In this document: positions 250 to 4,788 of the stretch, piece by piece
How the letters are laid out: every line of letters starts with the position of its first letter
Position numbering within the stretch: position 1 is the first letter of the stretch
Assembly (NCBI GenBank): GCA_026224975.1
Contig: JAMFRW010000059.1
Location: forward strand, 1-33,533
DNA length: 33,533 bases
Reading direction: 5' to 3'
Origin: Rhodoferax sp.
GTDB taxonomy: Bacteria; Pseudomonadota; Gammaproteobacteria; Burkholderiales; Burkholderiaceae_C
The notes under the pieces: model-generated
What the model was told of the DNA's origin: nothing
Seen by the model: the letters and a program-made list of their open reading frames with translations, nothing else
The model's database searches: none
Made by a program: the position numbers and the translations under genes

Positions 250-335
250 CTCAGTGGCTCCGGGTTGGGGTGTTCGACATGCGATGTGTGAGCGACGGGT
301 TGCTCGCGCGAAGTTTCGTCTGGCTCTTGTGCGCG

Positions 336-640
336 GCGCGGCAGGGGGTGCGCGGCGTGGTCTCACGCTGGTGCGGTCGGCGGGTACGCCGACTGCGCTG
401 CGCGGCCCAGGGCCAGAGGCCCTGGGCCCTCGCCAGGCACAAACAGTCCTCAAGACTGTTTATGTCCGGGCTCGGTGCTCGGTCCGGGGTCGCGTCGCCG
501 AACTCACCCCGCTCGCCGAGGCGAGCTAAGTTCGAACAACCGCAACGAGTCAGTTCACGGAGCGCGCAAAGCGCGCCGACCCCGGCCCTGTGCGTCTCCT
601 CGCCCCACAGTGAGGCTCCACCGCGCACCCCCTGCCGCGC
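336..640. repeat. Structured intergenic element bounded by a 20-bp perfect inverted repeat and containing serial hairpins
   Basis: GCGCGGCAGGGGGTGCGCGG (336-355) versus CCGCGCACCCCCTGCCGCGC (621-640); inner stems at 373-396, 404-428, 441-461, 511-526, 562-576 and 484-492/577-585. Confidence 0.85.
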
Positions 641-731
641 AGAACCGGCTTTGTGTGTTTGGGCGGAAGAGCCCACAATGTCGTCACCGTGAAGCGGGCG
701 GGCTGCGATGATCGAATCGAAGCATCCCATT

Positions 732-1856
732 TCAAGCCCCTTTCCCGGTCTTGAGCGCAGCAGCATTCAAATGCGCAGCGCTACCGGAGAGTGAAGGGGC
801 ACGAGACGACCAACGCACCCGATAATGAATCAGCGTGTCGCAAGCCAGCAGCGTGAAGAGCAGCAAGCCCTGGAACACGCCGGTCAGCGATTTGGGCAGG
901 CCGAGGCGGGACTGTGCAAGCTCGCCGCCGATGTAGAACATGCTCATGAGGATCGCCGAGAAGACGATGCCGACGGGGTGCAGACGGCCGACGTAGGCCA
1001 CGATGATCGCGGCGAAGCCGTAGCCTGCCGGCACGTAGGGCGTGAGCTGACCGAGCGGGCCTGCGGCTTCCAAACCGCCAGCCAGGCCGGCCATGCCACC
1101 GGAGATGAGTAGCGCAATCCACAGTGCGGCGCGTGACGAAAAGCCTGCGTACTTGGCCGCAGCCGGCGCAAGCCCGCCCACCTGCAACTGGAAGCCGCGA
1201 TAGGTGCGGAACAGGAACACCCAGAACACCGCCACGCTCGCCACGGCGATCAGCACGCCGATGTTGAGCCGCATGCCGTCGAAGAGCCGCGGGATCTTGG
1301 TGACTGCCAGGAAGGTGATGGTCTGGGGGAAGTTGTAGCCGGCCGGGTCTTTCCACGGGCCGTAGATAAGGTAGCCGAGCACGAACTCGGCCACGTAGAC
1401 CAGCATCAGGCTCACCAGAATTTCATTGGCGTTGAAGCGGTCTCGCAACAATGCCACGATGCCGGCCCACAGCATGCCGCCGACCACGCCGGCCAGCAGG
1501 ATCGGGATGACGATCCAGCGGCCGGTTTCCGGCCCGGCCTGCATCGCGACCCAGCCGCTGAAGAGGGCACCGAGGATGAACTGCCCTTCGGCGCCGATGT
1601 TCCACACATTGGAGCGGAAGCACACCGCCAGCCCGAGCGCGATCAGCAACAGTGGCGTGGCCTTGACAGCCAGTTCCGAGAGCGCATAGCCGCTCTTCAA
1701 CGGCTCCACGAAGAACATCTGCAACCCGCGCAACGGGTCCTTGCCCAGCATCATGAACAGGGCCACGCCGATCAGCACCGTGATGGCGAGAGCGAGCAGA
1801 GGCGAGGCGATCGACATCACCTTGGACGGCTGCGGGCGCGCTTCGAGCTTAAGCAT
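732..1856 (-). CDS. ABC transporter permease (nucleoside/BMP-type)
   Basis: 374-aa ORF with multiple TM segments and a conserved CFRSNVWNIGAEGQFILGALFSGW motif; overlaps the end of the ATPase gene by 8 bp. Confidence 0.92.
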   Translation of the reverse strand: MLKLEARPQPSKVMSIASPLLALAITVLIGVALFMMLGKDPLRGLQMFFVEPLKSGYALSELAVKATPLLLIALGLAVCFRSNVWNIGAEGQFILGALFSGWVAMQAGPETGRWIVIPILLAGVVGGMLWAGIVALLRDRFNANEILVSLMLVYVAEFVLGYLIYGPWKDPAGYNFPQTITFLAVTKIPRLFDGMRLNIGVLIAVASVAVFWVFLFRTYRGFQLQVGGLAPAAAKYAGFSSRAALWIALLISGGMAGLAGGLEAAGPLGQLTPYVPAGYGFAAIIVAYVGRLHPVGIVFSAILMSMFYIGGELAQSRLGLPKSLTGVFQGLLLFTLLACDTLIHYRVRWSSRAPSLSGSAAHLNAAALKTGKGA

Positions 1857-3444
1857 GGGCCACCTCCTTCGCGGCGTGGGCGCCGTCCTTCGGCCAGAGG
1901 CCGCTCATCCATTCGCCGATCATCTCGATCGTGGCTTGCGAAGTCGGCACGCTGGGCGACAAACGCCCCTGCGCGATCACCACCAGGCGGTCCGAGATTT
2001 CGAACAACTCGTCGAGCTCCTCGCTGACGATCAAGAGCGCGCAGCCCTCGTCACGCAGCTTCAGCAGCGCCCCGCGAATCTGCGCAGCGGCGCCCACGTC
2101 CACACCCCAAGTGGGTTGCGAAACGATCAACAGCTTCGGGCTGGCATCGATCTCGCGGCCGACGATGAACTTCTGCAGGTTGCCGCCCGAAAGGCTCTTG
2201 GCCGCCGCATCCGGCCCGCCGGCCTTCACGTTGTATTTGCGAATCAAGTCCTCGGCCAGTTTTTGCACCTGGCCCATCGCGATCCAGCCGCTCTTGCCGA
2301 CGGCCTCGGTGCGCGTGAGCAGCGTGTTCTGCGCCAGCGAAAGCGTGGGCACCGCGCCGCGGCCGAGGCGCTCTTCGGGCACGAAATTGAGGCCCAGGTT
2401 GCGACGCTGGCGCGGGCGCGTTTGCGAGATGTCTTTGCCGAACAACTGGATCGAGCCAGCCGGTGCACGCGTGTCTTCGCCCGAGAGCGCAGCCATGAAT
2501 TCCTGCTGGCCGTTGCCCGAGACGCCGGCCACGCCGACGATCTCACCGGCGAGCACTTGCAGCGCGATGTCGGCGAGCGTGGTACCGAAGGGTGACTGCT
2601 TGGCGAGGCTCAAGCCCTTCAGTTCCAACGCGACCGCGCCGAGTTTCGATTGGATGTGCTGCAACTGCGGCGGCTCGGCGCCGATCATCAGGCGCGAGAG
2701 GCTGGCGTTGGTTTCTTTCGTGGGATCGACCTCACCGGTGACCTTGCCGCCGCGCAGCACGGTGCAGTTGTGGCACAGCGCGCGGATCTCGTCGAGCTTG
2801 TGGCTGATGTAGAGGATGCTGCAGCCTTCGCTCGCGAGCTTGCGCAGCGTGACGAAGAGTTTTTCGACCGCTTGCGGCGTGAGCACCGAGGTGGGCTCAT
2901 CCAGGATCAGGCACTTGGGGTTGGTCATCAGCGCGCGCACGATCTCCACACGCTGGCGCTCGCCGACCGAGAGCGAATGCACCGGCCGCAGCGGCTCCAC
3001 ATCCAGCCCGTAGCCCTTGGAGACCTGCGTGATGCGCTGGGTGACTTCGGCGAGCGAGAGCGACTTGTCGAGGCCGAGCCACACGTTCTCGGCCGCGGTG
3101 AGCGTGTCGAACAGGCTGAAGTGCTGGAACACCATGCTGATGCCCAGCGTGCGCGCCTCTTGCGGGTTGCGGATGTTCACGGCCTGGCCGTTCCAGCGGA
3201 TCTCGCCTTCATCGGGCCGCACGGCGCCGTAGATCATCTTCATCATGGTCGACTTGCCGGCACCGTTCTCGCCGAGCACGGCGTGGATTTCGCCGGGCTG
3301 CACACGCAGGTTCACGCGGTCGTTGGCCTTGACGGCCGGGTACTGCTTGCTGATGTCGACGAGTTCGAGTCGCAACACGGGCTTCTCCGGTAGAAAACAT
3401 TCGGGGCGGCTTTCGAATGAAGCACGGCCGGGGGCCAGCGTCAA
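1849..3444 (-). CDS. ABC transporter ATP-binding protein with two nucleotide-binding domains (purine/nucleoside uptake type); true start may be a GTG near 3379
   Basis: Walker A GENGAGKST, signature LSVGERQRVEI and LSGGNLQKFIVGREI, Walker B CLILDEPTSVL; adjacent to two cognate permeases. Confidence 0.93.
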   Translation of the reverse strand: MTLAPGRASFESRPECFLPEKPVLRLELVDISKQYPAVKANDRVNLRVQPGEIHAVLGENGAGKSTMMKMIYGAVRPDEGEIRWNGQAVNIRNPQEARTLGISMVFQHFSLFDTLTAAENVWLGLDKSLSLAEVTQRITQVSKGYGLDVEPLRPVHSLSVGERQRVEIVRALMTNPKCLILDEPTSVLTPQAVEKLFVTLRKLASEGCSILYISHKLDEIRALCHNCTVLRGGKVTGEVDPTKETNASLSRLMIGAEPPQLQHIQSKLGAVALELKGLSLAKQSPFGTTLADIALQVLAGEIVGVAGVSGNGQQEFMAALSGEDTRAPAGSIQLFGKDISQTRPRQRRNLGLNFVPEERLGRGAVPTLSLAQNTLLTRTEAVGKSGWIAMGQVQKLAEDLIRKYNVKAGGPDAAAKSLSGGNLQKFIVGREIDASPKLLIVSQPTWGVDVGAAAQIRGALLKLRDEGCALLIVSEELDELFEISDRLVVIAQGRLSPSVPTSQATIEMIGEWMSGLWPKDGAHAAKEVAHA

Positions 3445-3492: not shown

Positions 3493-4788
3493 TCAGCCGC
3501 CGCCGAGGTAGATGAACTTGCCGAGGAAGACCGCCGCGATGATCCACACCATCCAGTGCACGCCCCTGGCCTTGCCGGTGAAAAGCTTCAGCGCCGCATA
3601 GGTGATGAAGCCGAAAGCGAGGCCGTTGGCGATGTTGTAGGTGAAAGGCATCATCAGCGCCGTGACGGCCGCGGGGATGACTTCGGTGGTCTCGTCCCAG
3701 TCCAGTTCTGTCAGTTCCCTAAGCATTAAACAGGCCACGAAGAGCAGCGCCGGTGCGGTGGCATAGGCCGGCACCGAGCCGGCGAGCGGCGAGATGACGA
3801 GGCAGGCGAGGAAGAGGATCGCCACCGTCAGCGCCGTCAAGCCGGTGCGCCCGCCGGCCTGCACGCCGGCTGCGCTTTCCACATAGGCCGTGGTGCTGGA
3901 GGTGCCGAGCAGCGAGCCGGCGAAGATGGCGACGCTGTCGGCCAGCAGCGCCTTGTTGAGCCGTTCCATCTTGCCCGGCACCAGCAGGCCGGCGCGCTTG
4001 GCCACGCCCATCAGCGTGCCGGTGGCATCGAAGAGTTCCACCAAGAAGAAGACCAGCACCACGTTCAAAAGGCCACCGGCGAGTGCGCCCTTGATGTCGA
4101 GCTTGAGAAAGGTCGGCTCGATCGACGGTGGCGGCGAGAAGATGCCGTGGAACTCATTGCCGCCGAAGACGAAGGAGGCCAGCGTGACGGCGACGATGCC
4201 GATCAGAATCGCGCCCGGCACCTTGAGCCGGTCGAGCACGACGATCAGGATGAAGCCGATCGAAGCCAGCGCCACCGGTGCGGTGTGCAGGTCGCCGAGG
4301 GTCACGAAGGTGGCATCCGACTTGGCGACGATGCCGGCGCTCTTGAGCGCGATGATCGCGAGGAAGAGCCCGATGCCGACAGTGATCGCGACCCGTATCG
4401 AATGCGGTATGCCGCGGATGATCAACTCGCGGAGGCCAAACAGCGTGACGATCAGGAAGAGGCAACCCGAGATGAACACCGCGCCGAGTGCCGTCTGCCA
4501 GGTGAAGCCCATGTGCAGCACGACCACGAAGGCGAAGTACGCGTTGAGCCCCATGCCCGGCGCGAGCGCGATCGGGTAGTTGGCGTAGAGCGCCATGATG
4601 CCGGTGCCGAGTGCGGCGATCAGGCAGGTGGCGACGAACACCGATTCCTTCGGCATGCCGGCCGCACCGAGGATGGAAGGGTTGACGAAGATGATGTAGG
4701 CCATCGTCAGGAAGGTCGTCAGGCCGGCGACGACTTCGGTCCTGACGTTGGTGTTGTGCTCTCGCAGCTTGAAAAGTCTCTCTAACAT
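3493..4788 (-). CDS. NCS2 family permease, AzgA/GhxP-like (adenine/guanine/hypoxanthine)
   Basis: 431-aa ORF, N-terminus MLERLFKLREHNTNVRTEVVAGLTTFLTMAYIIFVNPSILGAAGMP and GTSSTTAYVESAAGVQAGGRTGLTALT are hallmarks of AzgA-type purine permeases. Confidence 0.93.
   Translation of the reverse strand: MLERLFKLREHNTNVRTEVVAGLTTFLTMAYIIFVNPSILGAAGMPKESVFVATCLIAALGTGIMALYANYPIALAPGMGLNAYFAFVVVLHMGFTWQTALGAVFISGCLFLIVTLFGLRELIIRGIPHSIRVAITVGIGLFLAIIALKSAGIVAKSDATFVTLGDLHTAPVALASIGFILIVVLDRLKVPGAILIGIVAVTLASFVFGGNEFHGIFSPPPSIEPTFLKLDIKGALAGGLLNVVLVFFLVELFDATGTLMGVAKRAGLLVPGKMERLNKALLADSVAIFAGSLLGTSSTTAYVESAAGVQAGGRTGLTALTVAILFLACLVISPLAGSVPAYATAPALLFVACLMLRELTELDWDETTEVIPAAVTALMMPFTYNIANGLAFGFITYAALKLFTGKARGVHWMVWIIAAVFLGKFIYLGGG

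Follow-up and report, generated by a model that had tools for sequence, protein, structure and literature searches.

The window analyzed here, a 33,533-nt stretch of a Rhodoferax sp. contig, begins within an operon on the minus strand encoding what is presumably a nucleoside ABC transporter of the BmpA/PnrA type. The ATPase gene (1849–3444, -), taken from the list of open reading frames, and the gene for the first permease (permease 1; 732–1856, -), supported by the same list and by orthologues, are tightly packed, with the ATPase stop at 1849 and the permease 1 start at 1856, and the previously described overlap of 8 bp was confirmed. Only the N-terminal part of the second permease gene (permease 2; 1–249, -) is present; it was delineated from the open reading frames and by tblastn to orthologues, begins with a start codon at 247–249, and leaves the contig at its start. 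The two permease genes are separated by 482 bp, in agreement with the preliminary description of this locus, and a GGAG motif read from the sequence at 258–261 (-) may represent a ribosome-binding site retained upstream of permease 2. On the other side of the transporter genes, and adjoining them on the same strand, is a purine permease-like gene (3493–4788, AzgA/NCS2-type as judged by eye), an arrangement that would fit a purine uptake cluster.

To place the gap in an evolutionary context, we compared 22 other loci in which both permeases were present, drawn from the same genus, the same family and further families of the order. In 20 of these loci the orthologous permeases, located by tblastn, had spacings that ranged from -16 to 40 bp, so that the genes essentially abut, indicating that the 482-bp gap is a derived state; the remaining two gaps measured 87 and 109 bp. 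The 109-bp gap is that of G009 and includes GTGTCGCGGCAGGCTGCACCCGGGCGCGCCTTTGCCGCTC, a sequence that looks like the outer ends of a repeat element of the kind described below, fused together. Read along the operon, this sequence has the opposite orientation to the window copy, which suggests that it arose by an independent insertion event. Open reading frames are present in the gap on both strands (for example 251–766, -), but they were not common to the repeat copies with which the region aligns, which are non-coding and rich in indels. A conserved protein is thus unsupported, a protein-coding gap was rejected, and the earlier reading that the gap holds no convincing coding sequence stands.

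The gap is highly structured on both strands. All seven inverted repeats listed in the preliminary description were recovered at their positions, six of them perfect and one with a single mismatch. The outermost is a 20-bp stem without mismatches, with its left arm at 336–355 and its right arm at 621–640 (+). Among 60 dinucleotide shuffles of 250–731, none had an inverted repeat longer than 12 bp (mean of the longest per shuffle, 9), and the observed 20 bp is far beyond chance. Comparison of folding with shuffled sequence gave the same picture for 334–642 (z = -9.1 on the plus strand and -8.5 on the minus strand), with 0 of 100 shuffles as stable. Inside the outer stem, again in plus-strand coordinates, are the conserved hairpin GCGGTCGGCG-GGTA-CGCCGACTGC (373–396), which corresponds to consensus helix 4, has double changes in other copies, and carries the one mismatch between its arms (373–382/387–396); an internal stem corresponding to consensus helix 7, in which the 5' arm CCGGGGTCG (484–492) pairs perfectly with the 3' arm CGACCCCGG (577–585), and in which the window copy has a G-C pair in place of an A-U pair seen in sister copies; the hairpin GCTCGCC-GA-GGCGAGC of the core loop region (511–526, perfect arms 511–517/520–526); and the hairpin GCGCGC-AAA-GCGCGC (562–576, perfect arms 562–567/571–576), which is helix 12 and nearly invariant in the family. 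The conserved core at 468–600 (-) matched the family covariance model, R1, with 105 bits.

A BLAST search of the host genome with the gap as query revealed 53 matching stretches, the better of which were 60–190 bp long with 72–89% identity, demonstrating that the sequence is multi-copy. Dozens of partial and full copies are present, and many of them are broken by contig ends, indicating that copy number is underestimated. Iterated profile HMM searches defined a repeat unit of about 224–230 bp that occurs in two sub-types, A and B, which have a common interior and core but different outer stems (GCGCGGCAGGGGGCGCCCGGCGGGGGC...GCCCCCACCGGGCACCCCCTGCCGCGC in type A and GGCGCGCCCGGGCAGGCGTCGGTGC...GCACCGACGCCTGCCCGGGCGCGCC in type B). 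A complete element spans about 500–650 bp and is a doublet in which a type A unit is followed, after a short spacer, by a type B unit in inverted orientation: all 26 doublets were convergent (+ then -) with short spacers, typically joined one A to one B, and in most cases had a non-coding spacer of 64–190 bp. In the window, own-genome BLAST copies, the HMM and the alignment place a type A unit at 334–641 (+), interrupted by a nested repeat at 403–474, and the start of the A-B doublet spacer (GAACC...GGAAGAGCC) follows at 642–673 (+), as identified by a spacer profile match with E 1e-5 in a small search. Unit B was not found in the window beyond ~673, and the window therefore retains the A unit and some spacer. 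The proposal that 250–731 forms a single element was accordingly not borne out, given a unit at ~334–641, spacer homology to ~673, and the separate insert at 403–474.

The complete genome G299 has six doublets of ~529 bp that are 89–97% identical to each other's reference, pointing to recent spread, and copies in the window's own genome are mostly diverged, which makes present mobility of the window copy unlikely. In G299 several doublets (L208–L210, L213) are enclosed by an additional outer inverted repeat, GGCCCTTTnCTGAAGTTCG, which represents either the true ends of the element or another nested repeat.

To determine whether the fold itself has been maintained, we analyzed covariation in 38 aligned units over 69 pairs predicted from both strands. 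The two positions were paired in 86.5% of cells, compared to 75.6% in shuffled alignments and 39–46% in slid controls, and 40 of the 69 pairs were changed on both sides. Double-change cells numbered 303, against a shuffled mean of 116, and the covariation score was 0.285, against 0.112; none of 500 shuffles reached the observed value for paired cells, double changes or covariation score, although the count of further pair types was not above the shuffles (82/500). These cells do not represent independent events, as the sequences are related and fall into two sub-types, but the slid controls retain this relatedness and are still far below the observed values. The fold of a single-stranded RNA or DNA is conserved in this family via compensatory changes, despite the outer-stem differences between sub-types. 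The earlier suggestion of a large structured RNA is therefore supported in part, by strong covariation above both kinds of control among the homologues, although covariation cannot separate RNA from single-stranded DNA. Relative to the sister consensus, the window copy has four double changes that keep pairing and 13 broken model pairs, the latter indicating that it is partly decayed.

The 72-bp insert at 403–474 (+) is a copy of a second repeat, element C, nested in the type A unit; in most sister copies it is missing and the sequence is continuous from ~402 to ~475. It consists of a self-complementary hairpin I of variable sequence (404–428, perfect arms 404–414/418–428) and a hairpin II, AAACAGTC-CTCAA-GACTGTTT (441–461, perfect arms 441–448/454–461), both on the plus strand, and the general layout of the element is a variable hairpin followed by CGCCAGGCACAAACAGTCC-nn-GGACTGTTTGTGTCCGGGCTC. 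We identified about 17 further copies, with stems that covary, and element C occurs by itself in other genomes. Its position in the unit is identical in the window and in L095, a locus from another genus, and L036 and L040 carry it at a second place. Sequence resembling CCTGCG-(G/C)TnCTCGG, as read by eye, is present at both insertion places, which suggests a site preference. In G021, two copies of element C lie in tandem with a spacing of 72 bp (L110:1157–1300, minus-strand offsets), and the main unit was not found in that genome.

The distribution of the family was surveyed with R1, the covariance model built from the 133-nt core. It had 24 matches in the window's genome, 40 in G015, 15 in G004, 13 in G010 and 9 in G009. 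Across Burkholderiales, where no more than 11 candidates were scored in any genome, 20 of 300 genomes had a match; strong matches were found in three families (f1, f10 and f20), and weak matches (E above 1e-5), some of which may be due to chance, in five more. In a phylum-wide survey, 10 of 399 genomes had a match; nine of these belong to the window's family, and the tenth match, a weak one, is in a genome of a different family in the same class. Named carriers are Methylibium sp. NZG and a Burkholderiales MAG. A doublet of Methylibium sp. NZG (L076) had no match in either the plasmid or the phage collection, and an origin from plasmids or phages was rejected. Rfam 15 gave nothing at the gathering score in the window and nothing at E <= 1 in four unit-bearing loci, and we found no description of the repeat family in the literature searched. 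Being outside Rfam and not found in that literature, the family is apparently uncatalogued.

Taken together, these results are best explained if the gap holds a copy of a palindromic mobile element, dispersed and non-autonomous, that inserted between co-transcribed genes, a reading to which we assign a probability of about 0.7. Multi-copy dispersal, recent copies, nesting, a conserved fold, and empty orthologous sites, all of them in other species, stand behind this interpretation. The possibility of an inserted non-autonomous repeat raised in the preliminary description is supported: the sequence has multiple copies in the host genome, occurs in relatives and in other families, and the permeases abut elsewhere. 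A doublet would have entered the operon between the two permease genes and then lost unit B, after which the remaining A unit would have been invaded by element C, a smaller, apparently site-preferring palindromic repeat. Each unit is predicted to fold as a single strand, with a long outer stem closing several hairpins, and a recombinase or transposase acting in trans may recognize the folded strand or its ends and move the element. In the operon transcript, the fold could form a stable barrier after permease 1, with permease 2 presumably translated from its own GGAG site. By analogy with REPs, effects on the operon such as transcript stability or altered distal expression are plausible. No target-site duplication was recognized by eye at the doublet ends inspected, whose outer boundaries are not sharp. 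An apparent diverged duplication, TTGAAATGG at the end of permease 1 versus CTGAGATGG at the start of permease 2, was dropped because both are stop/start contexts and because the recognizable element ends lie 60–90 bp inside. No transposase or other mobility gene linked to the units was found, the transposase search covering Y1_Tnp only.

The strong covariation might also be expected of a functional RNA that is transcribed with the operon and regulates expression through its fold, by 3'-end protection of the permease 1 mRNA, processing or attenuation, its dispersal being secondary. Such an RNA would also account for the nearly invariant core loops and for the strand on which wobble pairs occur. 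On the plus strand of the unit, A-C mismatches outnumber G-T (90 versus 62 over the 69 pairs, and 32 versus 9 in type A alone), indicating that G-U wobble favors the minus strand, which in the window is the operon coding strand. However, this bias could stem from strand-biased mutation, nearly all orthologous operons are without the unit, units are found in either orientation beside unrelated genes, and no intrinsic terminator was found when we looked for one; we consider this explanation distinctly unlikely. It is also unlikely, if somewhat less so, that the element is a classical MITE, a decayed and internally deleted IS remnant on which the IS transposase acts through double-stranded terminal inverted repeats. 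Like bacterial MITEs such as QMITE2 of Coxiella and Chunjie of Geobacter, whose transcripts are predicted to be very stable (PMC10969869), it is short (about 500–650 bp), non-coding, mostly intergenic and present in many copies with inverted ends. Unlike them, it has two outer-stem sub-types with the same interior and compensatory changes in the internal hairpins of a conserved fold, which would not be expected of an IS remnant; moreover, no direct repeats were recognized at the ends inspected, and the search for Y1_Tnp revealed no parent IS. A third possibility, a REP/BIME/REPIN-type repeat moved by a RAYT (an IS200/IS605-like Y1 transposase), is suggested by palindromic, extragenic, inverted doublets, apparently without target duplication. 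The repeats linked to RAYT/TIRYT, which are 20–40 bp long with a GTAG or CGTC tag (PMC3733652), are similarly palindromic and extragenic, often located downstream of genes in many copies and as inverted dimers, and in both cases the single-strand fold is thought to matter. However, the present unit is about 230 nt long with several hairpins, and its carriers can be entirely without Y1 transposases: Y1_Tnp (PF01797) was not found in the window's genome (G000, 87% complete), G004, G009, G305 or G299, the last of which is complete and carries young copies, up to 97% identical. G015, G010, G239 and G252 have Y1_Tnp once each, with no R1 match in those four loci. The RAYT/REPIN route is therefore largely refuted, and we regard it as highly improbable.

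The places where doublets occur provide a further comparison. Among 24 doublets with a gene called on each side by a simple composition-based gene caller, 14 had tandem, 8 convergent and 2 divergent flanks, a distribution that fits tolerance at promoter-free places. The doublet at L027 splits a pair of genes that we take to be dihydropyrimidine-dehydrogenase-like preT and preA. Single accessory loci have a unit on each side in five cases, which come from G015 and G305. At L186:1390–2653, inverted units surround a weak RelE-type toxin match and an HTH antitoxin, and at L191:1161–2212, direct units surround a BrnT/BrnA-like pair read by eye. At L190:939–1826, two units that share the outer stem GCAAAGCCGCAGGCGGGAGG lie on either side of one small ORF, for a small membrane protein with a C-terminal hydrophobic stretch, in an arrangement resembling a one-gene cassette; at L037 and L095, paired units bracket orphan ORFs. 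Integron attC sites, which are recognized as folded single-stranded DNA, and pdif modules similarly bracket toxin-antitoxin or other accessory genes, and two units might in the same manner delimit and mobilize such genes. However, unlike attC and pdif, the unit is longer and usually found in inverted doublets without a gene, and most doublets enclose a 64–190 bp non-coding spacer. Ten loci in other genomes with homologues of the L037 cargo had no flanking units, and that cargo was rejected as a mobile gene. Given so few cases, which could reflect the chance neighborhood of frequent repeats, a cassette boundary appears improbable, and the accessory genes between paired units are a lead, not a result.

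We file the family under interspersed palindromic repeats; its size and the lack of a RAYT set it apart from REPs, and the conserved fold of its interior and the two types of outer stem distinguish it from MITEs. The motif 'Burkholderiales-1' of Weinberg et al. 2010, a structured motif that has no Rfam number and is doubtful as an RNA (PMC2864571), likewise comes from Burkholderiales, and is set beside the present family by name and description, not by sequence. Returning to the mobile palindromic element, it is conceivable, though we hold it to be unlikely, that an undescribed mobility system of Burkholderiales, neither RAYT nor classical MITE, recognizes the units as folded single strands of DNA or RNA. 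An inverted pair would then delimit a mobile segment, usually empty and sometimes containing toxin-antitoxin or other accessory genes, and the window would hold a decayed empty one.

The family described here adds a large, covariation-supported repeat to Burkholderiales genomics. It breaks assemblies, in that many contigs end in copies; it splits operons, as in the present transporter and the preT-preA-like pair; and it serves as a target for a second repeat family, element C. Its presence in RAYT-free genomes raises the question of which enzyme moves the folded repeats there, and whether toxin-antitoxin genes may be moved as well.
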